Origin: Fibrobacter sp. UWH6 | Lineage (GTDB): Bacteria > Fibrobacterota > Fibrobacteria > Fibrobacterales > Fibrobacteraceae | Reading direction: 5' to 3' | Assembly: GCF_900142465.1 (NCBI RefSeq) | Contig: NZ_FRAX01000011.1 | Location: 62,001-126,000 of the forward strand | Length of the DNA stretch: 64,000 nucleotides | Shown here: piece after piece, positions 34,409 to 64,000 of the stretch | Position numbering within the stretch: position 1 is the stretch's first letter | Layout: each line of letters starts with the position of its first letter | Program-made: the position numbers and the translations under genes | Notes under the pieces: generated by a model | The model's input: only the letters and a program-made list of their open reading frames with translations | Database searches by the model: none | What the model was told of the DNA's origin: nothing

Positions 34409-34655
34409 TTAATCCTTACCATAAACCTTTTCAGCGTAGGTAGCGGTTGCCATGAGGTATTCGCGGTTCATCTTGGCGATGTAATCCACGGTGATACCCT
34501 TCGGGCAAGCAGCCTGGCATTCGTAAAGGTTGGTGCAGTTATCAAAGCCTTCCTTGTCCATCTGTGCCACCATAGCGAGCACGCGCTTCTTGGCTTCGAC
34601 CTTGCCCTGCTTCATCTGTTCTTCGTTGACAATGTCCAGCATTTCCAGGAAGGTC
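34409..34655 (-). pseudogene. frdB: frdB fragment B, internally deleted
   Basis: The frame reads [15 protein letters not shown] joined directly to [12 protein letters not shown] and on to the normal end. The 125 or so residues that should carry the 2Fe-2S cysteines and the first ferredoxin-like motif are missing. The same junction is present in fragment C. One substitution (Gly to Asp, GFDNCTN) separates it from A and C. Upstream it meets the end of a DUF3368 toxin gene at about 34655. Confidence 0.85.
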
Positions 34656-34670
34656 GAATGTATGGGAAAA

Positions 34671-35066
34671 TTACAAGGATTCAAGCAACTTCTTGAAAAG
34701 TCGTTCGCCAATGTGACGACCGCTAGAACGCAATATTTCTACAGCTTCGCGAACTTCATCTGCAGAAATGTAGCCATCCTTATAAGCGGCTCTAAAAATG
34801 CCGATTGTACCCATTATGTTGAGACCGATTGTTTTGGCAACATGCCTTGCCCTGATTTCATCAACAAGAAGTAAGTCCGCATTTAACCGATCTGTCAAAA
34901 CGAGAGCCTCACTCTCACCAAGGTCAAGCCCCGTAGCCCTCCTAAAAAGGGAGACTTCTTGAGGATTGACATCTTGTATTTCAATGAATTCACATTTCCT
35001 AATCTCTTCCGCTTCTTCAGAAAAGTCAGGATTGGCAGTTAATTCTTCAAATACGCCTTGAGGCGT
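34671..35066 (-). pseudogene. N-terminally truncated DUF3368 PIN-type toxin
   Basis: The frame is open from 35066 but has no start codon near its beginning. It reads GVFEELTANPDF ... TGLDLGESEALVLTDRLNADLLLVDEIRARHVAKTIGLNIMGTIGIF, which is the body of a DUF3368 PIN-like RNase with the middle Glu and the later Asp, but the first 30 or so residues with the first catalytic Asp are missing. It abuts the UPF0175 gene, its usual antitoxin partner, and overlaps that gene's last codons. An internal start at 34898 would give only 75 residues. Confidence 0.75.
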
Positions 35067-35581: not shown

Positions 35582-35935
35582 TTAGTCCTTGCCGTACACC
35601 TTTTCAGCGTAGGTAGCGGTTGCCATGAGGTATTCGCGGTTCATCTTGGCGATGTAATCCACGGTGATACCCTTCGGGCAAGCAGCCTGGCATTCGTAAA
35701 GGTTGGTGCAGTTACCAAAGCCTTCCTTGTCCATCTGTGCCACCATAGCGAGCACGCGCTTCTTGGCTTCGACCTTGCCCTGCTTCATCTGTTCTTCGTT
35801 GACAATGTCCAGCATTTCCAGAAAGGACATGTCGGGAGAAATGTCGCTGATCTTGACAGTTTCGAACTGTCCCTTGGTCTTGGAGTCCTTCTGACGCCAA
35901 ATCTTCAAAGTCAAATTCATATTGCCGTGGCTCAT
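35582..35935 (-). pseudogene. frdB: frdB fragment C, start kept, middle deleted
   Basis: A 117-residue open frame starts with the normal frdB N-terminus ([20 protein letters not shown] ... [16 protein letters not shown]) and jumps to [12 protein letters not shown] and the normal C-terminus. All four 2Fe-2S cysteines and the CxxCxxC motif of the middle are lost; only [12 protein letters not shown] remains. The ATG overlaps the frdA stop (TAATG), the wild-type coupling. The junction lies in a short repeat (CAGGGCAAGG) that would occur at both ends of the deleted piece. Confidence 0.85.
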
Positions 35936-36774: not shown

Positions 36775-38727
36775 CTACACGTCGTTTCCGCTAAAGCCGA
36801 GAGAGTCTTCAAGCCAGGTGTCTGTCCGCTGAACAGAAAGCCTACTTTTCATGGCTTTCTTGCCCGCCGAATACTGCGCCCACCTCACGACGAGCGCAGA
36901 AAGGCGGCCAAGATGCCTAAAAGCGCCCCAAAGCGCCCCCGGCAGGTTGCGGCGCAGCACGTCGTCCTCAAAACTTGCGTAATGGCTCGCGCTCCCCGGG
37001 TCACCTTGACGGGCGGCGCGGCCAAAAAGCTGGCGGTCAATTCTCGAAGAAGGGTTGCACTCCGTGGCAATCACATGCAGGCCGCCAAGTTTCTTTACTT
37101 TATCGGGAATCTTGATGTCGGTTCCGCGCCCGGCCATATTGGTCGCAACCGTTATCGCGCCCATACGACCGGCGCCCTCGATAATTGTAGCCTCGTCGTC
37201 GCTGCGGACAGCGTTTATCACACAGCATTCAAGGCCAAGCGCCTTGATCATTTCGGCAAGGGTTTCGCTTTCGTCAATGTCCTTGGTGCCGATAAGGACC
37301 GGGCGGCCCTTGGCATGGACATCGAGCACTTCGTGGACAATGGCCACCCGCTTGGATTCCTTGGTAGAAAAAATCTTGAGGAACGAAATCTTACGCAAGC
37401 ACTTGCGGTGATTCGGAATGCAAAGGACTGCCGCCCCGTAAATCGTCCAGAACTCGCCAAGGGCTTCCTTGCCGGTTCCCGTCATGCCAGAAAAGTTCTT
37501 GTACAGCCTAAAGAAGCGCTGGAAACTCATTCGCGCCTCGGTTTCCTTGAGGCCCGAAAGTTCCAGCCCTTCCTTCAGTTCAATCATCTGGTGAAGCCCG
37601 CCGTTCCACGAACGCATGGGCATCTTGCGGCCCGTCGATTCATCGACAATCACCACCTTGCCTTCTTCTACAACATACTGGCGACCGGCCACAAAAAGTT
37701 CTCGCGCCACAAGCGCCTGGCGAATCAGGTCCTTCAAGAAAGACGCCTTGCAGAAGCCCTCGCCCACCGACTTAAGCGATTCCAGGCGTTCGTCCATATC
37801 GACAAGGAAACGGACTGTCCTAAAGCGGATATCGACAGCATAGTCGGTACCTTGGACCAATTTTTCGGAAAGCGCGAAAGCAATCCTGCAACTTTCGTTA
37901 AAGCCCTCGTTCTTGTTCTCCTTGGAAATTATAAGCGGAGTCACAGCCTCGTCAATAAGCACGTTGTCGGCCTCGTCAACGATGGCGGTGCATAGCCCCC
38001 GTTGCACCAAGTTCGACATGACCCGTTCCATATTCGCGCCCGAAGAATCGCCCACAAGCCGCTTCGAGAAATTCTGGTATTTCCCGAGCGCAATGCGGTC
38101 ACGCAAGAAATCGGCAAGCACATCCTTGGCGGTAGAATAGGTCACGTCGGCGCTGTAGCCCTCCCTGCGCTCGGCAGGTTTCATCGCCCCGGTCACCGCA
38201 CCCACGGTCACGCCGCAAATATCGTAGAGAGGCTTCATTATCTGCGCATCGCGACTTGCCAGGTAGTCGTTCGCGGTTATCACGTGGCATGGTTGCTTGC
38301 CAAAGCCGCGCACCGTAGCGCACATCGCCGCAGTCACGGTCTTCCCCTCGCCTGTCGACATTTCGGCAATGAACCCGTCATAAAGTGCCAAGGCTCCCGC
38401 CACCTGCTCAATGTAGGGTCTGTACCCCAACGTGCGGGTCACCGCCTCCTGCACAAGGGCAAACGCGGTCTGCAGCGCGTTGCGGTCCGGCCTACGCTTA
38501 AAGGCATCGCGGACACGCGCCAGCCTTTGCCTAAACTCGGCTCTGTCCAGGCCGCTATACGACCTGCCCAGCTTATCGATCTTGGCAGCTTCGCGCAAAA
38601 GGCGGCGCAGCACGCCACTACGGCCCTTGAACCGCCCTTGCATCCGAAAAACGAGGGCGTCAAGCCCCGTCGGAATCTTCTTCACCCGTTTACAGGCGGT
38701 AAGGCGGTAGTTTTCGATCAGGTTCAT
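36775..38727 (-). CDS. Divergent SecA-like ATPase
   Basis: A 650-residue relative of SecA, shorter than the usual 850-900. Visible parts are AEMSTGEGKT (Walker A, residues 121-130), HVITANDYLASRDA, VDEADNVLIDEAVTPLIIS (DEAD box and the SecA-specific tail, about 250-268), NFSGMTGTGKEALGEF, GRGTDIKIP and the arginine-finger region GRAARQGDPGSA. The helical wing is reduced and the C-terminal zinc-binding end is missing. SecA moves proteins through SecYEG; accessory forms export special substrates. The ATG follows the M50/HlyD stop by one base, so it must serve the same pathway as the giant protein upstream. A small hairpin (GTGTAG/CTACAC) overlaps the stop. Confidence 0.9.
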   Translation of the reverse strand: MNLIENYRLTACKRVKKIPTGLDALVFRMQGRFKGRSGVLRRLLREAAKIDKLGRSYSGLDRAEFRQRLARVRDAFKRRPDRNALQTAFALVQEAVTRTLGYRPYIEQVAGALALYDGFIAEMSTGEGKTVTAAMCATVRGFGKQPCHVITANDYLASRDAQIMKPLYDICGVTVGAVTGAMKPAERREGYSADVTYSTAKDVLADFLRDRIALGKYQNFSKRLVGDSSGANMERVMSNLVQRGLCTAIVDEADNVLIDEAVTPLIISKENKNEGFNESCRIAFALSEKLVQGTDYAVDIRFRTVRFLVDMDERLESLKSVGEGFCKASFLKDLIRQALVARELFVAGRQYVVEEGKVVIVDESTGRKMPMRSWNGGLHQMIELKEGLELSGLKETEARMSFQRFFRLYKNFSGMTGTGKEALGEFWTIYGAAVLCIPNHRKCLRKISFLKIFSTKESKRVAIVHEVLDVHAKGRPVLIGTKDIDESETLAEMIKALGLECCVINAVRSDDEATIIEGAGRMGAITVATNMAGRGTDIKIPDKVKKLGGLHVIATECNPSSRIDRQLFGRAARQGDPGSASHYASFEDDVLRRNLPGALWGAFRHLGRLSALVVRWAQYSAGKKAMKSRLSVQRTDTWLEDSLGFSGNDV

Positions 38728-38728
38728 G

Positions 38729-40903
38729 CTACATCTTATAGTATTTCTGCAGGGCCTGCCTTGCCTTGCGGATTCCCTGCAGGGCAAGCGGAGTGTCTGT
38801 CAAATGGAAACGAATTTTTCCGGAACGTCCATGAGCCCAGTCTACACCGGAGAGGGAAGCCAAGTCCCTTCTTATCGAGGAACGAACGAGGTAAACAGGC
38901 TCCGCCGTACGCTCGCCAGAGCCATCCTTCGCCGTTGTTTCAATTTCGCCACCGCCAAGCCAGCCAAGGGCCGCAGAGGGCAAACGGTCACTCGCCGCAG
39001 GAATCACGCTCACGCTATCGACAGGAATCTCGACAAAGGCTTCGCCGTTTAAACGCACGGAAACCTTGCGCGGGTTTTCCATGAACAAGCGCGAGACTTC
39101 CTCTTGAGTCACCACCGCAAGAAAATCGAACGCAGCCGTATCTAAGACCATCCCAACCGAATCGCCCTTCTGCAAGAAACGCCCCACGTAGTCGTCAGGA
39201 CTTTTAACATTCCAAATTCCGTCCATCGGAGCAAGCAGCGCCAACTTATCGCGGTCGCGCAACAAATCGTTCAGTTCCTGCCTCAGGACTCCCAATCTCT
39301 TTTCGACGGGCTGCATGTTTTCGGGAGCCAGTTCCAACGCCTGGTAATACGTTTGCACGGTCTCGTTCACCTGGGCACGTTTTTCCTCTATGCGGAAATC
39401 CAGTTCACGGTTCTCAAGGACCATCAGCGTATCGTCCTTATGGACCAGGGCCTTTTCGCCACGATAGACCTTTGCGACAACGCCCCCCTCGCCTACCGTA
39501 GAATTCTCGTACCGAGCGGCCTCAATAATTCCAGGAGCCTTGAAAGTGTCGGGAACAGGCACGTAGAAAAGCGCTGCAAAGACTCCGCCGAGCACGACCA
39601 AAGTCACAAGCACGGCGCGGTTACGGACCTGCGAAAGGGCTGGGCTTGCAAAGACATACTTTATAAACCGGCCCACAGGCATCACCACCATTGTAAGGCA
39701 GAGCAAGACACCCATACAGAAGGAAAGTATCAGGTAGTGCGCGGAAATGGCGACAATGAAGCCTGTAAACAGGAACACCCTGTAAATCGAAGACGAAACG
39801 CCGTACACGGCATAAACAAATCTTTCAAACCAGGTTTCAGCCACCTCTTCGGCGTCACGTTTGAAAAATACGTAACGTTCGAGCAAGTACTTCAAATGCC
39901 GCACCGAGCGCTGCTGCAAATTCGGCATGTCAAGAGCGTCGGTAAGCATGTAGTACCCGTCAAAGCGCATGAGCGGATTCACGTTGAAGAGGACTGTCGA
40001 AACGGATGCCATCACAACAACGTTGTACGCAAGACTTTTGGCGAGGCCGCCCCCCAAATTCGCCCAAAGTATCAAAGCAATCGAAGCAATGAAGAACTCC
40101 GTGAGCATGCCTGCCGCCCCCACGAGAATGCGTTTCGACTTTTTGCGGAAAGACCAGCTCGCCGTCGCATCCACATAAGGGAGAGGAACAAGCAGCATGA
40201 ACATCACGCCGAGCGTGTGAACCTCGCCGCCAAAACGCTTGACCACACTCGCATGGCCAAATTCGTGAAGCAGCTTGACAAACACGGTACACACGTAAAC
40301 CCAGCCGATGTTCGACGGGGCAAGGAACCCTTGCGCACTATCCTTCAGGGCGTCGAAATTTTCAACACCGTACTTCGCAGCCACAAGAACCGTCAACAGC
40401 CACACCACCGCAAACGGCTTGCTAATCAGGCAAGCGATGAGCCATCGCAAGCGATTCAGAATAGCGTCAGGATCGAAAACGGGAACCTTCAAGAAGAAGA
40501 TGTTCAGTAACGAAGACTTGACCTTTTTCTGCCTCTGCTTGCGGTTGCGCTCGAAAAGCTTTGCGCCATCGTCCACGCCCATGTACATGAGCATGTTCGC
40601 CTGGTACAGCTGCGCAAGCATCTCGATGACTTCGCCCTGGCCGGGCATATCGCCATCGCCGCTTTTAAGCATCGAGTTCCAAACCTCGCCTACCGTCTTA
40701 TCGGGCGAAAGGCGCGACACAAAGTCGTACGCACCGCGCGGCAAGCGGTAGTACTGGTTGGTAAACTGCTCGTGAAGAACATACCACAGTACCCCGCGGT
40801 AGGTTTGCCTATGCACGCGGACACTCGCCCGGAGAGAAATCTTACTCCCCGAGAGCCTGTACCACGACTCATGGAAAATCCTACGCTGTTGATCGAGGAC
40901 CAT
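38729..40903 (-). CDS. PqqD-like/M50 protease/HlyD fusion protein
   Basis: A 724-residue membrane protein. Residues about 30-110 look like a PqqD-type winged-helix binding domain (YYRLPRGAYDFVSRLSPDKTVGEVWNSML). Residues about 150-450 hold six or more membrane segments with the site-2-protease zinc motif HEFGH (213-217) and the partner motif NPLMRFDG (309-316), both intact. Residues about 460-724 resemble HlyD: a half lipoyl domain (GEGGVVAKVYRGEKALVHKDD), a short helical hairpin and LLAPMDGIWNV. Such hybrids accompany peptide and giant-protein exporters. AGGA lies eight bases before the ATG, and the giant gene ends 12 bases upstream. Confidence 0.88.
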   Translation of the reverse strand: MVLDQQRRIFHESWYRLSGSKISLRASVRVHRQTYRGVLWYVLHEQFTNQYYRLPRGAYDFVSRLSPDKTVGEVWNSMLKSGDGDMPGQGEVIEMLAQLYQANMLMYMGVDDGAKLFERNRKQRQKKVKSSLLNIFFLKVPVFDPDAILNRLRWLIACLISKPFAVVWLLTVLVAAKYGVENFDALKDSAQGFLAPSNIGWVYVCTVFVKLLHEFGHASVVKRFGGEVHTLGVMFMLLVPLPYVDATASWSFRKKSKRILVGAAGMLTEFFIASIALILWANLGGGLAKSLAYNVVVMASVSTVLFNVNPLMRFDGYYMLTDALDMPNLQQRSVRHLKYLLERYVFFKRDAEEVAETWFERFVYAVYGVSSSIYRVFLFTGFIVAISAHYLILSFCMGVLLCLTMVVMPVGRFIKYVFASPALSQVRNRAVLVTLVVLGGVFAALFYVPVPDTFKAPGIIEAARYENSTVGEGGVVAKVYRGEKALVHKDDTLMVLENRELDFRIEEKRAQVNETVQTYYQALELAPENMQPVEKRLGVLRQELNDLLRDRDKLALLAPMDGIWNVKSPDDYVGRFLQKGDSVGMVLDTAAFDFLAVVTQEEVSRLFMENPRKVSVRLNGEAFVEIPVDSVSVIPAASDRLPSAALGWLGGGEIETTAKDGSGERTAEPVYLVRSSIRRDLASLSGVDWAHGRSGKIRFHLTDTPLALQGIRKARQALQKYYKM

Positions 40904-55900: not shown

Positions 55901-56725
55901 TCGGACATCAACACTGGCATTATCATCAAATCCAGTATTTTTATCGCCGTCAAGAGTAAAACTGACTGTCGTATATCCAGACGCATTGCTTTTGAAATCA
56001 AAGGTTTCAAACAAAACGCCAATTTGAGTTTGCTCAGCAATATCAGCTGCAATCTGCTTATTTGTGGAATAAGAAAGTGAGGTTTTCTTTTTAATCTGAA
56101 CGGACACCTTATGCTGATTAGGATCCGTCGTATCTACAGCAAAGGTCCACTCTGAGTGCCTACGAGTGTCACTCATAAGCCTTTGAACTAACGCATCAGC
56201 ATCTACCCTAAATTCTTTATACGCTTTATCGTAAGCAGCCTCAGCAGCATGATACTCAGTTTCAGCGTCATTCACGGCATCCACAAGATCTGCATAACCT
56301 TCATCATTCGGATCTGCATTATCAAGGAGCTCCTTGAGATCATCCCAATGTGTTTTCTTGTTATCCCTATCTAATTTTTGTGTCTTTGTTCCTTCATCGC
56401 GCAAATCATCAACAACTCCGCATACATATTTTTTTACGGATTTAACATCTTGCTTATACTGTATCTTTTGACCACTTACAACATCTGCCAAAGAAAGCGC
56501 TTCCGGCTCACTTCCAGTGCCATTCTCATAGACAAGCAAACCTTCCATCTTGGAATCGCTCGCAGAAATATTATAGTCACCAAACTGATTAACCGAAGAA
56601 TCGGCTTCCTCAATCCAATCGTCTGCAAGCGTGGCATCCATCAAGAGTCTCGGTTCGAGAGACTCGATCTTGTAATTGTTACGGTTTTTCTTGGACTTTT
56701 TGTTCTTCTTGTTGAGTTTAGACAC
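40916..56725 (-). CDS. Giant LEPR-XLL, RTX-repeat secreted protein
   Basis: About 5,269 residues. The lysine-rich N-terminus leads to SLEPRLLMDA, the LEPR-XLL motif that marks the start of very large surface proteins in several phyla and probably acts as an export signal. Roughly residues 60-2290 are beta- and helix-mixed without families that I recognise. RTX-type calcium-binding nonapeptides (GGAGNDKIYG, GGKGNDVIYGG, GGAGNDTLDG) run at about 2300-2520, 2650-2810 and in islands up to about 5010. A Glu/Gly/Ser/Thr repeat (about 5100-5160) precedes a final beta domain. I place the start at GTG 56725 because AGGGG lies four bases upstream; a TTG at 56746 would add seven residues. It probably acts as an adhesin. 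Confidence 0.92.
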   Translation of the reverse strand: MSKLNKKNKKSKKNRNNYKIESLEPRLLMDATLADDWIEEADSSVNQFGDYNISASDSKMEGLLVYENGTGSEPEALSLADVVSGQKIQYKQDVKSVKKYVCGVVDDLRDEGTKTQKLDRDNKKTHWDDLKELLDNADPNDEGYADLVDAVNDAETEYHAAEAAYDKAYKEFRVDADALVQRLMSDTRRHSEWTFAVDTTDPNQHKVSVQIKKKTSLSYSTNKQIAADIAEQTQIGVLFETFDFKSNASGYTTVSFTLDGDKNTGFDDNASVDVRFDFKQDLGNTDANIGILGLESRNDGGAVSLPDLTVIGSFQTDSKNNSTIATNYEYDLDFRVKNYASVATLMTNFAVDDTDHLKYIGNTAVGQAPVWQDAAGSAVNDENALIPDFANVRIGDVLKQFNAIAKWLQNAETEILKNDFEGLIDQNASSFLYLSNYFATFVKTPPQSFQELLSRFDYPVITAEFKNVSGKNICQLKYDGWITSQNLEASVSEALFKSLSNSFGGIEKVSLSLGAQSHLKMTFDIPMDELGSVGNSAKLKSIGVDAEKVAGLVGAKNVCVADKALSKTSSVGEEIKFALYENGSLKKDITIPSTTSLDEAGIQSIVGELNKAYPATGAGTSPKFGVIINKDGNGDVDKFAIVTDDTANTFSLLFASDNSRKMCVNSSQQFCKAYLIDTTMITSLSVDNKTVQPKETGIYFDWAAAINEVLMSNPNLTDYSAVSLGDAVIVFYSQSEQNVLVTGENSTSAPTDVWLPFSGSAGVERQILFSSSHPVETSNSDLSFAFAINGGAAQNILLEAETLANCYTVDDVVSVINGELTKLGNGIKAFAWEGKIGFSNENDLPFGVSLSNKDLGFDNLAYSSTTNCMKMKFDVGGPTDIEVDIDLYNFFKTKSDPTIGNLLDEIKTQCNNILSTKAPSCSVDVNGMSLVVSGGKFSSSGAVEDLNGCSLVELLGWNVDNDSDSFLVVHAQSQKEITISNFSLDIYETLTSNGNIASARLGMVGVDVTGNVGIRATRKLTANNLIGDVTEIPLDTADTDFTSNFTLGNWSYASTSTNTLNVDLSEGLLVDDATQNAVKQHVMSADLYATVVGRALIPDPSYISKTENSSVASLKLINMSALVEKVTKALKENVLKSILAYGESATPSTDPILAVLNQKLPLFGKSAPELLGLINKLNDVIDNISKSHPATLQELNQRVDKALGAKLYFTFHASSIDFSFVWKQEYKSQVVSINNFSIMETAEGARPTNVGGLAEVYLNGSIDTRFNYSMSVNGSALGDPILQEDSSVSIDVTLMGKPLSFDLSVALGGMSASLLKVVSSDSNPSYIAVRIHEKMAYRNTATSGSAAAGSFSSYEWKHDADVCQIGGLLRVECAGQSVGEIKLGVVDDEGDVDAWKGDAGNNGSFALNDLVSGKVGIRKPGKFTGTLSAAELGDNTTGSIVLDMSNLGSNWEKIDLFGQVRLVADALSAALRKAQSGLNKTFLSDGMRKIPLVGNTIVGAADCLTALDEAFIEPFRKFAYNSQNLDEHVVAERLYAILQRTGLLLALKKEVSSTQKVMWAGSAFDQSFEDNGSQYIQYRNDGNCIEWRFRLGQSYSLSGNADFDLGMPGLGLSSKGGVDLELGWEWYIGFGVSQTGAYIMLSNGIDEDGSETVNGKTVNIVADGISKKVETVVNGTTVKQDLMSGDDICITMRVLANELKINGALGFLQMSADVLPGGTNPFEKDAETGKDKLSEITFGIDLNDGQRDSKDADSDKTTDSSVDTKIKADNVASALSLETNLEGSLDIKVDMTLGFNNDKIDIGFPTIGTVFHLTWEAVFGKPFGELTLAEFSGITLDLGKFAKQTLQPILSKIQKVIDPIMPLIDFLQSEIPVLSSLPKGGSKMTVLNLIKSIGSSQGLELGMIDDIVQVANLIKKVGNLNLGAISLGSLNFASTTYNDPKVQNFLAGTAELPLGDFTSRLSGITDSALKTATSSLSSAFGSQRVAANGNSYGWRFGLFQDAKGNISADAIKKSAINLLFGQDVSLVEYRMSPLIFDFDWSKSFPIVGPLCADIGLNFGAKIELSFGYDTRGLISWKKTGFKDLWALADGFFIDDLDSNGKDVSEVIFYSGITAGASVAGRAGINVGVNLNLNLNLDDPNNDGKLRLSELADSLAHSPFAIFDASVTLQARAYAYLDLVFYRKEFDLWKSGALELFNTDKTGTGSPIVATTQEGNLVVNVGEFAEKRVYGDLSDGDDTVDIVCSGGTVDITMTTADKVSTKSSYTLAAGKCVYIYAKDGKDKVSITGNSSLNFVIEGGDGNDEIDLSGLNLAPTCYALVMGGLGDDFIRGADIGTNILLGETADVLYKKKESSDEEYVALVNAYPNSSNPGNNVIVGGRGKNYIVGGGGSDLIVGGVDAKFDNKDADGNVTGTLYVTENHLYGDFAYFEFDESHNLTNAKNEDLYDEGGNDVILGSSKTDFIFGGAGSDRIKGGDGNDEIHGGKGNDVIYGGAGNDKIYGEDGVDVIFGDTPADEAMVIAREDDAVGELPYVYIAEEIKKDTSDLFGSDTVTTTDADGNVSSESVNRIALFNFENSFKTDVASLNALAQVAVSLFDAPQVDLSATQTAATTGATTTGTTAATEAEGTEPQAEEEPSTQVTNGSDVIEGGNGSDIIFGDDGSNTSEGGSDIISGGADNDFIDGDGGNDTINGDYGEDIIYGGAGNDTLDGGAGNDFVFGDNGLAGYVKDNNGAIIGASELFKNSFSGSDDDKIAKANQDLMFGYGITAFAKNFGITADAKFNGVGGNDTILAGNGNDFVDGQGGDDTYKIQIMGGSNHAITNVMDSGTADKGDSMTIDGTVEADDMLVRASTAGLGFVAKLPSKKDAQIERVNFWNVGGGDTGLENIAINTGAGDDKIAIDGTLSTISIDAGAGNDTITVGQQFESERNTDKDHSNVLPNDAFTTTKTTQGYLSAGVQHSTSIVGGEGNDTFNVLHNEAAVSLSGGLGNDTFNVAMFQKVNNDGSKSIVENGPVTLIGGAGVDKMSIVGSDGDDDFVISQGRVLCNGTDVQAVSIENKNVYGGDGDDSFYVLDTAKDEVTKLYGNKGNDSFYNGGIGTAEKPVIVSNSKNENSDAIGVQFDVPKNNTVGDADPANGVIDYDTDLDCAKNYIVENGVVKSVYKIHLDKEPEKGEVVSVTVFAPGETTESLNRGDHGIWLVDANNKYVKSITYKFTIDGAGETHKYDEAVDINLVVLGDKVREGNDYFALMHKVTSSKSDRLIKDCKNALIFLNENAAQQSFLIKQVHEVKDAEFTAEKFTLLLNETPNGNTVECFYYANGQKIPLGSANVVENNGKFQVTVDVPASVKTAMDAAKTPYVYVGYNIDRPVNKVENQFSITQEHVLTAEEVTRNKVVWGLRALPNKQNIDCWYMNDGEYVSIPASNLNKLSFGGVTYENTLSVSGVSSIPAGTKLYINYRFDHVYVENESVLQMAYSTTGMTELLCFVPFDEITDAYDDSRYSIVCPESKVADYKDVENCRYFYRTAGTQLIICAMPQDGVDTSSAKPVVLHGNFAIEWSADDWHRPAVAISDEPDSFNETSVTEILDALDDDTIENIKGALYEDGMGREADLGIDGPSMLHYDGLDADGNRLTTSNDEKNVISESDLAERKAAEEEAAKFDEGNSKDRIFVNNRKNNRAGIKNDIDALSEIAKFDNSMIEKDVDPALILQKTEDVVKQADTEWRDSDEHSLRFEHQDASSTATSQFNLANMEYGEINLGSGADKVDINKTIYREDGFQTFTVVNTGAGKDNINVHSYAREKSTVLGTLSGLTKTTYSGSLKNVIAYSVSDFTFSNGVTSDNLKAIVAQNNDKLDRGLLAQNRVFLNVEYSDGTIQRREVFLEDNDETTVTTLLLKRELTPVAQDVSIVAMYLANGYDGDGLLVVNAQGGDDTINAVGDVDADGKSKVTREGMVVIGGVGNDTIDVNTNVIAIGDRGQIVYENEKSEIVTRLGSLDIENSETDDAKLNAADYTTPADKTASNYFQTDGVVRDAKYIHSVSETVGGNDVITAHGDKNVAIGGAGSDEIYLNGENNVAVGDNGEVKFAGSDVVKNASGDVVDHVYGDSSTTYLNYVQSTSDAHGAIDTITTQNGKNVVIGGTDSDMIATGSGNDVIVGDGGEVYVDRNRDALLVDNVGRNVDGSAGSDVIKTSGGDNVILGGLNTKSRDFDFVRNAESGKLDKMSIDKKNDDLIESGDGKDVVFGDNAYVTFKGNSEMAEGFDNMPTIYTEATLSFNFQGPAQSGIGANEQAGAVADYRAKSVDETTGETVEITEHADYCVGNWNNIKSVYGRESGTYGNDDNEIVLFDNGTRASAVSVTYGATESHRISTTDGENIRLRGYDQTPYVHGSNSGDVNLMKSGLDISGNNGRNTLITQVDGLSQYFTEYEVVVYLDMVREISMHENSVRVVKLYIDSVDENGKLTSTFFDEFYVNDPDTQTFNGTWNVATGKSVATATLANCVVFKSFVENDTKHTLAGDRFHIEITDPQNGTNGKDRAGIAGIQVHGFMHKQDVAASTDIDMGGKDVILTNGGDDIVVGGTGNDTITTFGDDRYGIRDNDIVYGDNAKMVFTDRDSDPTTATTISHAESIATTNLKASYDDIINTGDGNDVVVGGVGHDVVNSNATSGAEAKMDNIQVTSFNFVTETTSDSLLIHAGESAGVVVDNDWHNVYLRNNQMRDRATGNESAPSTVITFEYTSIGNYGNRNNPNEQIDPATGDDTANNKMLKTLVMGQRQETLSLTLHNLPGPSGSPCDVYVYVGGKLGSSDGYDYVFEINGSDNQKFYLNDWIGNSFEGEYKEVTCKDYKPGKLASGVTPNVEMIGNYVVFRNVKTCDYTVQIRCVESTLGNQYPNDIPVFSGVQVVSGLNRTGDIALGGDHDKDLVFGDEASLDFDLDIPFAGNENIKDYKNRVISAESMALATEAVQHLRTDDEIKTGKDRDVVVGGEGRDTISTGSGDDVAIGDNAKLMVENNNPIGVFQPDVEVVLEDNQYFDGYKEAYLDNDQVNEQRMMQKFYEGKIVGIQLQDSENGRLDSIDVGAGENLVFEQSRSEEQLFVGTLESDEDEDDVNPSDIGGEGSEGTETDEGSEGEGSESGEGSEGTETGEGSEGSEGTETGEGSEGTEQIAMKQFVLSQKHVPVYVEIAAGETVEIVITDWEEGNPYYRPKVVLEMNSLDNMMHYLDISWDGISEAITRDLLNYNWLEIPNSSTVPGEHKIVLQIHSDEAIAFLASCGN
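41256..41430 (-). repeat. GSEGTE/EGSEG coding repeat
   Basis: Within the giant gene a Gly/Ser/Glu/Thr stretch (GSEGTETGEG and variants) is encoded by nearly identical 24- to 33-base units such as GAACCTTCGCCGGTTTCAGT on the plus strand. It would be prone to slippage and length change. Confidence 0.75.
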
Positions 56726-58554: not shown

Positions 58555-58677
58555 TTATATGTGAGCATCATTTTTACGCAGCGAGCACATCAAGAGTCTT
58601 GGTTCTAGAGACTCAATTTTGTAATTATTGCGGTTGTTTTTCTTAGACTTTTTGTTCTTCTTGTTGAATTTAGACAC
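58555..58677 (-). pseudogene. Orphan LEPR-XLL leader mini-ORF
   Basis: From the same GTG/AGGGG start arrangement as the giant gene, a 40-codon frame reads MSKFNKKNKKSKKNNRNNYK, then IESLEPRLLM, and after the Met diverges to CSLRKNDAHI before TAA. The leader is thus complete but the passenger is gone. It lies 40-60 bases after FISUMP lipoprotein 2, exactly as the giant gene lies after FISUMP 1. It is most simply the stump of a second giant gene; a free leader peptide with a function cannot be excluded. Confidence 0.75.
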
Positions 58678-58770
58678 ATAACCCCTATAGCCTTTCAAAG
58701 GAAAGGCTTTGTTAATTTGTTTAAAATCTTGTTATAGTTAGTAGTTTTTTACACAGCGGATGGAAAGAGC
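58588..58770. repeat. Duplicated block, copy 2
   Basis: Second copy of the leader/intergenic/FISUMP-end block described at 56639-56818. The non-coding part is identical over about 95 bases, which points to recent duplication or gene conversion. Confidence 0.9.
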
Positions 58771-60450: not shown

Positions 60451-62532
60451 ATGCAAGTCAAACAGGCTTTCTCCTTTGCAATGTGCGTCATTGCAGCATG
60501 TGTCATCGGCTGCTCTCCAACAAATTCCGAAGACAGCGAATACTCAAAATGGAGTTTTTCCGGCTCTGTCGTCGACGCCTCGAATAACGCAACTCTTTGT
60601 GGGGTAAAGATTTCATACCAAAACGCCTCCGGAGATCTCAAATCCACGGAAACCGACGAGGCCGGCAACTTTTTCATCGACGATTTGCCGTACGGTTCGC
60701 GAACCTTCACCTTCACGCACAGGGAAATTCAAAAAAAGGACACCTTGTACTACGCACCGCACGTCGAAACGGTCAACTCGACCAGCGAATCCTCGCACAT
60801 GGAGGGGGTCGTCGCCACGTCATCCATGGTGATAAGGCTTTCTCCCCTCAACGCGGCCCTCAATGGAGAACTCTACATAAACGAAGCCAGTTCCGGGAAA
60901 GCCGTCCCGATAAAGGGGGCCTCCATATCCATCGTCCACCAGAGCGAAGATTACGTGAACCTGTTCCCCGAAACCTTTGACGGCTCGTCCGATTCACTCG
61001 GGAAGTTCACGTTCAAGAACTTGCCCGCAGATTCCGGGCTCGTCCTCAAAATAGCCCCCGTCACATACAACGGGTTGCGCTACACCGCTACAGACAAAAT
61101 CCTTCCACGCCTCAAGCCGAACGGCGCCATCGATCTGGGACGCACGTACCTCCAGCAGGACACCCTTGTCAAAAAGCAAAACGACATCAAGGCCTCTAAC
61201 GTGATGGACAAGAACTACATGGGGTACGGGGAGCTCTCCCCCCTGATTGTCCCGTACTACGTATTCAACGAAAAGATTACGTCCAAGAACTTGTCGGTCA
61301 ACGTAAGGAGCGATTCGGCAAACTTCTACGTAGAGCCGGTCATCAAAGGCGACACGCTGTTCCTGGCCCACCCCGATAGCGCCTTCGACGCAGAAACCAG
61401 GTATTCCGTGAGCATCACCGCATACGGCAAGGAGTCGGGCGAGCGCTACAATCTCGCCTTCAACGGGGATTCCGCATTTACAACGGGCAGAGGCCTCTAC
61501 GCCATAACAAGCAACGCATGGCCCAGCAACGAAAAATACACGTCCTCCTTCGGCACGAGCGACACAATCTGGGTCAAGTTCAGCGAGGACCTCGTCTCGA
61601 GCGCCGACAAGATTCAGTGGAGTTTCGCCAGCGGCGCCACGCGCACCATCTACGCGCACAGCTACGGCAAGAACGCAGACGCCTGGGTCAAAAAGGACAC
61701 TCTTTTCGTCAAACTGATGGATCGCATCCTCGACTCCCGCGTGCAGGGAGATACCATCGGCATGAACATCACCGCGTACGGCAAGAGCGGCCTTGTCCTC
61801 AAGAATTTCTCCCTTTACACAGAAATCCAGGTTCCCGAAAAGCAAAAAATCAAGGCGTCAAATGTCGTCGACAAGTCGCTCATGGGCTATAGGGACGTCT
61901 CCCCCCTGATTACGCCGTTCTTCGTTTTCGAAGAGGAACTTAGCAGCGCGAACCTTTCCGTCTCGGTGAAGGCCGGTTCAGACGTATTCTACGTCACCCC
62001 GACAGTGAAAAAAGACACCCTGTTCCTCAAGCACGATCGTTCGTTCCCCTCGGAAGCGAGCATCAGCGTGAGCATCGCCGTATACGGCAAAAAGTCCGGC
62101 GACCGCATATCGTACGAGCTCACCGGCGATTCCGCCTTCGTGACAGGGCGCGGACTCTACGCGGTCACAAGCAACGCATGGCCAAGCAACAAGGGCTACA
62201 AGGCAAGCTTCTCCGCCGAAGACACCATCTGGGTCAAATTCTCGAAGGCTCTTTCCACGAACACCGACAGGATACAATGGAGCAAGGCGAGCAACGCAAA
62301 GTACACCCTGTACGGCCATGGCGCCAACAAGAACGCAAACGCAAAGGTCAAGGGCGACACGCTGTTCATAACAATGCTCCCGAACGCCATCAACGAGTCC
62401 ACCCAAAACGGCGACTCCGTCGGCGTAAACCTCACCGTCTACGCAACCGACGAGACTTATCTCGAAAAGTTCACATTGTACACGGAACTCGAGATTCCCC
62501 TGTCGAGCTCAAGCACCACAAAAAATGAATAA
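60451..62532 (+). CDS. Lipoprotein with two 215-residue repeats
   Basis: A 693-residue lipoprotein with lipobox VIGC (Cys21). Residues about 33-110 look like a carboxypeptidase-regulatory/SdrD B-like beta-sandwich (FSGSVVDASNNATLCGVKIS ... TDEAGNFFIDDLP); a second such domain follows (INEASSGKAVPIKGASISIV). Two long repeats then start IKASNVMDKNYMGYGELSPL and IKASNVVDKSLMGYRDVSPL (about 247-455 and 467-678), each with GRGLYA-(I/V)-TSNAWPSN and KFS. It ends with SSSS. Its stop overlaps the HlyD start by eight bases, making it part of the export operon. A scaffold or outer-membrane partner is plausible; the fold of the repeats is unknown to me. Confidence 0.85.
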   Translation: MQVKQAFSFAMCVIAACVIGCSPTNSEDSEYSKWSFSGSVVDASNNATLCGVKISYQNASGDLKSTETDEAGNFFIDDLPYGSRTFTFTHREIQKKDTLYYAPHVETVNSTSESSHMEGVVATSSMVIRLSPLNAALNGELYINEASSGKAVPIKGASISIVHQSEDYVNLFPETFDGSSDSLGKFTFKNLPADSGLVLKIAPVTYNGLRYTATDKILPRLKPNGAIDLGRTYLQQDTLVKKQNDIKASNVMDKNYMGYGELSPLIVPYYVFNEKITSKNLSVNVRSDSANFYVEPVIKGDTLFLAHPDSAFDAETRYSVSITAYGKESGERYNLAFNGDSAFTTGRGLYAITSNAWPSNEKYTSSFGTSDTIWVKFSEDLVSSADKIQWSFASGATRTIYAHSYGKNADAWVKKDTLFVKLMDRILDSRVQGDTIGMNITAYGKSGLVLKNFSLYTEIQVPEKQKIKASNVVDKSLMGYRDVSPLITPFFVFEEELSSANLSVSVKAGSDVFYVTPTVKKDTLFLKHDRSFPSEASISVSIAVYGKKSGDRISYELTGDSAFVTGRGLYAVTSNAWPSNKGYKASFSAEDTIWVKFSKALSTNTDRIQWSKASNAKYTLYGHGANKNANAKVKGDTLFITMLPNAINESTQNGDSVGVNLTVYATDETYLEKFTLYTELEIPLSSSSTTKNE

Positions 62533-63337
62533 GTTGTTCAAAATACTGTTTTTCTGCACCGCCGTATTCGCTTTTTGCGCAAGCTCTGCACTAGCCGCAA
62601 GCTTCGACGGTATCACGGAACCGCTCGCGCAAGCCAGTATGGGCTTTACCGTATCCGGGAAAATCGACAGCATCTGGGTAAAAGAAGGCGAGTTCGTCCA
62701 CAAGGGCGACACCTTGATGAACCTCATAAAGACCGAAGAGGAACTGCGTTCACGCATCACGAAAATCACCGCCGAGGACCTCTCGAGTGTTGTCTCGGCG
62801 AAGGCGAAAATGGACGCGTACGAAAAGGACTTGGAAGCCACGAAAAAGTTGTTCGAGACTTCGAATTCCATAAGCGCCGAGCAGCTCTGGGAAAAGGAAA
62901 TGAACTTCAATGTAGCGAAAGCCGAATGGGAAGCCGCAAAGGTATCCAAGTCCAAGGATTCCCTCGAGCACCGCATGGCACGCGCACAGCTGCTCAAGCA
63001 GTACCTAATCGCCCCCTTCGATGGAGAAATAGTTTCCATATCGAAGAACAGGAGCGAAAGCGTCGAAGCCCTCGAATCCGTCATCGAAATCGCGGACGTG
63101 CGCACATGCCGCATGACAGCCTACATCATTGTCAACAAGACGAACAAGCTGAAAATCGGCCAAAGCGTCAATCTTCAACTGAACGGCTCCGCGAAAAATC
63201 GGAACAAAATGGGAACCATTGAATTCATCTCGCCCGTCGTCGACAAGGCCAGCCTGCTACGAACAGTCAAGGTCATCTTCGACAATTCAAACCACTCCAT
63301 AGAACCCGGCGTCACCGGCAAAATCATATTGCAATAA
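62525..63337 (+). CDS. HlyD/RND-type periplasmic adaptor
   Basis: A 270-residue membrane-fusion-like protein. A signal peptide (SSALAAS) is followed by half a lipoyl domain (GFTVSGKIDSIWVKEGEFVHKGDTLMNL), a short coiled-coil hairpin (residues about 75-150), the second half (LIAPFDGEIVSISKNRSESVEALESVIEIADV) and a beta-barrel (LKIGQSVNLQL, GVTGKIILQ). Such adaptors link an inner-membrane pump to TolC. Unlike HlyD it is processed or periplasmic and short. The ATG of the TolC gene overlaps its stop (TAATG). Confidence 0.9.
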   Translation: MNKLFKILFFCTAVFAFCASSALAASFDGITEPLAQASMGFTVSGKIDSIWVKEGEFVHKGDTLMNLIKTEEELRSRITKITAEDLSSVVSAKAKMDAYEKDLEATKKLFETSNSISAEQLWEKEMNFNVAKAEWEAAKVSKSKDSLEHRMARAQLLKQYLIAPFDGEIVSISKNRSESVEALESVIEIADVRTCRMTAYIIVNKTNKLKIGQSVNLQLNGSAKNRNKMGTIEFISPVVDKASLLRTVKVIFDNSNHSIEPGVTGKIILQ

Positions 63338-64000
63338 TGCACAAACTTTCTGCACATTTGACGCTATTCGCTTTCATATTGATTTTTTCGGTCGCCAGTT
63401 CCTTTGCAACCGAAGACTCGCTCAGGCTCAACTTGGAAACGGCGCTCAAGATTCTTATCGAGAACAACACCGATATACAAGAAGCAAAATACAACTGGAT
63501 TGCGCAAGCCGAGATGACAAAAGGGGCCTACGGGGATTTCGAGCCGCACTTAAACGGCCGTGCAAGCAAGGAAAGAGGCGACAGGCCGAGCGCCCTGTTC
63601 ACGGAAACCAAGGACGAGTACAAAATCGGGATACAAGGGAAGCTACCCTCGGCTACGGAATACAGCGTGGGCTTCAACCAGGCGACCTACACCCATAGCG
63701 AATACACCTCGGAACTTTACTTTGGCGGCGAACTCCGCCAACACGTGCTGAAAGACGGCCTGCTCTACTTTTCGCCCACTGCGCAGCTCCGCGAAGCCTA
63801 CCTGCAACAGGAAATCGCCTACCAGAAATACCGCAACACGCTCAGCGACGTTTTGGACAAGTTCTACGATGCCTACTGGAACTACTTTTACGCAGAGCAA
63901 ACCCTGCAATTCGCCACGAAGTCGTCACAAGTCGCAAAACAAATCGCGGACGACGCAGAAAAAAGGCAGCAGTTGGGCATACTCTCGGTCCTTGACAAGC
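63337..64000 (+). CDS. TolC-family outer-membrane protein, partial
   Basis: Only the first 221 residues are in the window. A signal peptide (SVASSFA) is followed by LRLNLETALKILIENNTDIQEAKYNW, the usual TolC-family opening, then barrel-like strands (DEYKIGIQGKLPSATEYSVGF) and long helices (AQLREAYLQQEIAYQKYRNTLSDVLDKFYDAYWNYFYAEQTLQFA). TolC proteins form the outer-membrane exit duct of type I secretion and efflux. Coupled by TAATG to the HlyD-like adaptor. The frame is still open at the window end. Confidence 0.9.
   Translation, partial: MHKLSAHLTLFAFILIFSVASSFATEDSLRLNLETALKILIENNTDIQEAKYNWIAQAEMTKGAYGDFEPHLNGRASKERGDRPSALFTETKDEYKIGIQGKLPSATEYSVGFNQATYTHSEYTSELYFGGELRQHVLKDGLLYFSPTAQLREAYLQQEIAYQKYRNTLSDVLDKFYDAYWNYFYAEQTLQFATKSSQVAKQIADDAEKRQQLGILSVLDK

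Follow-up and report, generated by a model that had tools for sequence, protein, structure and literature searches.

Why should a bacterium that owns a housekeeping SecA also carry a second, much shorter one, set in an operon of secretion-type genes? This question is raised by a 64,000-nucleotide stretch of Fibrobacter sp. UWH6 (contig NZ_FRAX01000011.1, positions 62,001 to 126,000), hereafter the window, in which a truncated secondary secA is preceded by a gene for a protease-adaptor fusion and by one for a giant protein. A preliminary description, drawn from the sequence of the window, had proposed that the shortened SecA is a dedicated export motor, which was a good inference; the comparisons reported here suggest that it is probably the motor of an ABC-free, type-I-like secretion system that is reserved for giant proteins led by the LEPR-XLL motif. 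That description was right about the separate clade, the operon and the second secA, but it missed that SecAs of this kind were published in 2015 (Kamneva, Poudel and Ward; PMC4452313), and it did not link the SecA with the adjoining upstream gene for the giant, the part of the locus that tells us most. The features central to the argument are as follows.

36775..38727, minus strand: truncated secondary secA, 650 amino acids, comprising NBD1, PPXD, NBD2 and a short tail
38729..40903, minus strand: fusion of a PqqD/RRE-like domain, an M50 site-2 metalloprotease and HlyD (M50-HlyD), 724 amino acids
40916..56746, minus strand: giant protein, presumed cargo, 5276 amino acids from a TTG, with RTX calcium-binding repeats
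56624..56671, minus strand: LEPR-XLL motif YKIESLEPRLLMDA in the N-terminus of the cargo

A SecA reduced to its motor domains

As previously described, the ATPase motifs of the secondary SecA are intact: the Walker A motif (GEGKT, residues 126-130), the DEAD box (251-254) and the motif VI arginines are all conserved across 25 relatives. The Pfam domains SecA_DEAD, SecA_PP_bind and P-loop_SecA were detected in the protein and in 25 of 25 relatives, whereas SecA_SW and SEC-C, both present in the housekeeping SecA of the same genome, were undetected in it, and none of the 25 relatives matched SecA_SW. The gene begins just past the M50-HlyD gene, whose TAG stop is followed by a single C and then the ATG, supporting the claimed translational coupling to a secretion-type operon.

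The protein is shorter by about 340 amino acids than its own housekeeping SecA and by about 190-250 than the SecA of E. coli or B. subtilis. In phmmer comparisons with solved SecA structures its alignments end at residue 593, i.e., at the end of NBD2, and when mapped onto the own-genome SecA, 31 of 31 relatives share an end point at about residue 685 of 991. In the same alignment, occupancy of the SecA_SW region was 0.20-0.23 for these 31 proteins (77-80% empty), compared with 0.69-0.96 for Gram-positive SecA2s. Since all 31 relatives share the end point and their SecA_SW region is mostly empty, only NBD1, PPXD and NBD2 are left; the cut falls after the first scaffold helix and removes the two-helix finger and the wing, together with the zinc tail and the bulk of the scaffold. 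Thus, the earlier estimate of a protein some 200 residues short and lacking the zinc region was correct as far as it went, but understated the loss. In canonical SecA, it is the finger that enters SecY, the scaffold and wing lie against lipid and the tail of SecY, and the PPXD also contacts SecY (PMC6599042).

The ratio of nonsynonymous to synonymous substitution rates (dN/dS) of the secondary secA was 0.03-0.15 in the four congener pairs for which it could be computed, and the gene is therefore not decaying. The truncation is an ancestral trait, maintained by purifying selection. It is to be noted that in one genome (G083) the secondary secA (L015, L158) is interrupted by an internal TAG, and that no LEPR-XLL giant was matched in that genome, a combination that fits loss of the whole system.

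A clade apart from canonical SecA

A housekeeping secA is present elsewhere in the genome (G000:C17), as a 991-amino acid frame with SecA_SW and SEC-C, along with a single SecY; a second SecY was not found in the genome. An IQ-TREE phylogeny was built from 50 sequences, namely 31 secondary SecAs and 19 housekeeping or Gram-positive SecAs, the housekeeping ones being those of this genome, other Fibrobacterota, E. coli, Sinorhizobium, Listeria and Nocardia; the sequences of Kamneva et al. were themselves outside the tree. A branch with 100/100 support set 21 Fibrobacterota and 10 alphaproteobacterial-plasmid secondary SecAs against the housekeeping SecAs and Gram-positive SecA2s. In other words, the Fibrobacterota secondary SecAs join their proteobacterial counterparts, apart from canonical SecA, which bears out the separate clade with conserved neighbours that had been anticipated. 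Both findings named beforehand as refuting the idea, clustering with housekeeping SecA and the lack of another secA in the genome, failed to appear.

Two assignments were rejected on these grounds. Housekeeping identity is contradicted by the missing SecA_SW and SEC-C, an equivalog score under the cut-off and the separate clade. Identity with the SecA2 of Gram-positives or mycobacteria fails likewise, as the four SecA2 models of NCBIfam scored 360-455 bits against cut-offs of 725-1100 and the clade is a different one, in agreement with the earlier remark that the context is unlike that of Gram-positive SecA2.

The search also returned other SecA-like frames. A weak third match to SecA_DEAD in the same genome (G000:C3; 693 amino acids, 26 bits) is a probable other helicase. 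Four distant Fibrobacterota genomes (G016, G020, G022 and G031; loci L172-L175) encode a SecA of 807-950 amino acids that falls, with 100/100 support, beside a SecA2-like protein of an actinobacterium and apart from the housekeeping SecAs of other Fibrobacterota; G016 and G020 apparently have three SecA-type genes each.

LEPR-XLL giants as the constant neighbour

The N-terminus of the giant exceeds the curated cut-off of NCBIfam NF012209 (LEPR-XLL, LEPR-8K), and comparison with congeners places its likelier start at a GTG at about 56725. Plasmid loci were selected by SecA similarity alone, and yet the LEPR-XLL leader was found in 10 of 10 giants with a readable N-terminus, namely that of the window (IESLEPRLLMDA) and those of nine alphaproteobacterial plasmids (FEALEPRLLLSAD, FDTLEPRVLLNAD, VEQLEPRLLLAAD, FESLEPRLLLSAD in two close strains, LETFEPRVLLSAD, LDPMEPRVLLSAD, METYEPRLLLSAD and LETLEPRYLLSAD).

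The same association was seen across the phylum. Among 168 Fibrobacterota genomes, M50-HlyD occurs in 33 and the secondary SecA in 33, with both in 32; in the genome with M50-HlyD alone the contig ends 19 bases past that gene, and what the SecA-only genome has is a 233-amino acid fragment. LEPR-XLL frames of at least 1800 amino acids were found in 19 of the 33 genomes with M50-HlyD versus 1 of the 135 without it (Fisher p 3e-15, uncorrected for kinship). The sole exception (G113) is a metagenome-assembled genome that is 88% complete, and at a looser threshold a twentieth M50-positive genome (G091) has a LEPR-XLL giant just below 1800 amino acids. In some genomes, e.g., G128, the giants sit on contigs other than that of the module, which fits work in trans. 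Taken together, these distributions give good support to the link between the module and LEPR-XLL cargo.

The LEPR-XLL leaders are basic, and their hydrophobic stretches are weaker than those in two control Sec signal peptides. In the open-access literature no statement was found on what LEPR-XLL does, and NCBIfam names it as a domain only; a Vibrio genome report mentions a LEPR-XLL/RTX protein of about 8000 amino acids with no transporter.

Orphan LEPR-XLL stubs of about 27-150 codons, in which an intact leader is followed by an early stop, were also encountered. One lies in the window (58555-58731, minus strand), flanked by FISUMP lipoprotein genes, and another at G000:C16:17833-17874 (L023); such stubs are common where a Fibrobacter genome has no SecA/M50 module, and they probably represent what is left of giant genes that were duplicated or lost.

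A conserved gene set with adaptors and TolC

Three further candidates for the system lie on the same contig.

62525..63337, plus strand: periplasmic adaptor (RND/HlyD-type membrane fusion protein), a likely component, divergent to the cargo operon
63337..64000, continuing 839 bases into the flank L005, plus strand: TolC-family outer membrane factor, 500 amino acids
L005:832-2271, outside the window, after the TolC gene: GAF-HlyD protein; the contig ends at L005:2798

The order within the genus Fibrobacter is giant, M50-HlyD and SecA, with mostly short gaps. Other Fibrobacterota have adaptor, GAF-HlyD, M50-HlyD, SecA and TolC contiguously, and the adaptor family of the window is found inside the operon in relatives. 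The alphaproteobacterial plasmids carry giant, DUF3467, GAF-HlyD, PqqD/M50-HlyD and SecA, with adaptor and TolC in some. Gene comparison thus documents a conserved set composed of secondary SecA, PqqD/RRE-M50-HlyD, GAF-HlyD, periplasmic adaptor and TolC, together with the motor architecture, the shared truncation and the constant proximity of the LEPR-XLL giant. In the plasmids, the annotated genes around this set include no ABC transporter, the rest of the genome not having been searched for unlinked ABC exporters. The small DUF3467 gene stands between giant and GAF-HlyD in five of the alphaproteobacterial plasmids (L029-L034) and was not seen in Fibrobacter.

The M50-HlyD partner resembles a leader protease

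The protease residues of the M50 protein, comprising the HExxH motif (H213, E214, H217) and a distal D315 (NPxxxxDG), are invariant in 25 of 25 relatives. Domain detection among these proteins gave PqqD in 13 of 25 and HlyD_3 in 17 of 25. The best curated match was daptide_HExxH (NCBIfam NF041824; E 2e-48), which spans residues 23-410 and covers the RRE region, although its 165.3 bits are under the equivalog cut-off of 300. In daptide clusters the site-2 protease MpaP, to which leader removal is assigned, carries an RRE at its N-terminus, and the precursors have an ELExMEAP motif, required for processing by the RRE protein MpaB, that is followed by an aliphatic stretch (PMC10036551). The daptide LExMEAP looks similar to the IExLEPR-xLL, or [IVLF]ExLEPRxLL, of the giants. 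The window protein and MpaP share an N-terminal RRE or RRE-like domain on a site-2 protease and an acidic-hydrophobic leader motif; the former differs in its additional HlyD part and in its presumed substrate, a giant protein rather than a short peptide.

A proposed export route and its alternatives

Recurring as it does in distant bacteria with LEPR-XLL giants, the module is probably a dedicated machine for giant-protein export. For its operation we infer the following steps of leader recognition, cleavage and channel formation. LEPR-XLL would act as an RRE-type leader, bound at the inner membrane by the RRE-like N-terminus of M50-HlyD and perhaps trimmed by the M50 site. The PPXD clamp would hold the unfolded giant chain, which the SecA ATPase would feed or ratchet, and the HlyD-type parts together with TolC would form the conduit outward. 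The inner-membrane pore, the least certain step, may be either the membrane domain of M50 or the single housekeeping SecYEG; that the secondary SecA has no finger argues against canonical pushing through SecY. A bolder version, in which SecYEG is bypassed altogether, LEPR-XLL is an RRE-bound relative of the leaders of ribosomally synthesized and post-translationally modified peptides (RiPPs), PqqD-M50-HlyD is receptor, peptidase and inner-membrane gate in one, and a SecA without the finger drives proteins of 5,000-12,000 residues directly to TolC, is tentative and, in our estimate, rather doubtful.

Several observations weigh against a dedicated SecA-driven route. PqqD fell below passing in 12 of the 25 M50 proteins, that of the window included. 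Direct leader binding in the daptide system was tested for MpaB and not for the protease MpaP (PMC10036551), and the likeness to daptide leaders is a short motif that could be due to chance. In the window, the adaptor, TolC and GAF-HlyD genes share the contig of the secA but lie divergent, outside the operon. As the main gap, six M50-positive genomes (G016, G020, G044, G147, G165 and G083) yielded no acceptable LEPR-XLL match, not even to a custom profile, which may reflect incompleteness or another leader. Lastly, AlphaFold2 models from shallow alignments (13 rows each) reached a predicted local distance difference test (pLDDT) score of 57 for the secondary SecA and 40 for M50-HlyD and gave no structural support; of the two checks that had been proposed for this SecA, the phylogeny delivered a separate clade, while the structure model was too poor.

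The main alternative is that the system works in the manner of SecA2-only export, i.e., the secondary SecA and the housekeeping SecYEG move the giant to the periplasm, from which HlyD and TolC take it, or something else, onward. The single SecY of the genome and the retained PPXD, a SecY-contacting part of canonical SecA (PMC6599042), speak for it. However, 31 of 31 relatives are devoid of the SecY-entering finger and of most of the SecY- and lipid-contacting scaffold and wing, a region that the Gram-positive SecA2s keep, and the LEPR-XLL leaders have no Sec-like hydrophobic core; overall, we regard this alternative as unlikely. Still harder to accept is that the SecA serves as an ATPase in regulation or as a chaperone and does not pump the giant, that a classical RTX system of the ABC type exports the giant instead, and that the adjacency is due to chance or co-regulation. 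Although RTX repeats are usual companions of ABC-type I secretion, and the GAF domain of the adaptor hints at regulation, the LEPR-XLL giant adjoins the secondary SecA in two phyla and is co-distributed with it across Fibrobacterota, and the annotated plasmid neighbours include no ABC exporter, with the above limit on the search; this makes the proposal quite improbable. Finally, a redundant duplicate without a separate role, or a decaying copy, as the shortness relative to housekeeping SecA might suggest, is refuted by the low dN/dS, the conservation of all catalytic motifs, the identical cut in 31 of 31 relatives and the constant neighbours.

Relation to known systems

Kamneva, Poudel and Ward described truncated secondary SecA_DEAD proteins beside M50, HlyD and GAF-HlyD in five phyla, and proposed that SecA takes the place of the ABC ATPase with M50 as pore, the biological role being called unknown; they name no Fibrobacter, LEPR-XLL or cargo (PMC4452313). 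The secondary SecA of the window matches theirs in being an additional SecA_DEAD protein beside a canonical SecA, in missing SecA_SW, in its clade apart from canonical SecA, and in its Peptidase_M50, HlyD and GAF-HlyD neighbours, sometimes with outer-membrane (OEP) domains. It differs in the Fibrobacterota members, the cargo family, the PqqD/RRE in the M50 protein, the intact protease residues and the absence of the finger. No follow-up on the 2015 module was found in the open-access literature, subscription journals and preprints being mostly not covered. What appears to be new, therefore, is that Fibrobacterota carry the module, its link to LEPR-XLL cargo, and the PqqD/RRE-M50-HlyD partner with its likeness to daptide proteases.

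The accessory Sec SecA2 of Gram-positives and mycobacteria is likewise a second, ATPase-intact SecA beside a housekeeping one, but it retains scaffold, wing and two-helix finger and belongs to another clade. Type I secretion (HlyB/HlyD/TolC) shares with the module the HlyD-type adaptors, TolC and RTX-repeat cargo. Its signal is usually C-terminal, whereas the cargo here has an N-terminal LEPR-XLL leader and the module genes include no ABC transporter.

On the dedicated-export reading, the 2015 module would gain a cargo and the LEPR-XLL leader a machine, both having previously been without function. At least one recruitment of SecA would then have taken place outside the SecY paradigm, and a leader and protease in the style of RiPPs would have been reused for addressing giant surface proteins. 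For environmental genomes, it would also become easier to foresee which of the giant proteins are secreted and through which machinery.

Other observations

Viral contigs contained 19 SecA-encoding loci at 31-50% identity, and a confirmed M50-HlyD relative was not found on them. A profile comparison of two families gave no relation between them. Downstream of the secondary secA, the window contains gene debris in which a C-terminal fragment of the succinate dehydrogenase/fumarate reductase iron-sulfur subunit (NF005746) is present twice (34409-34711 and 35582-35935, minus strand).
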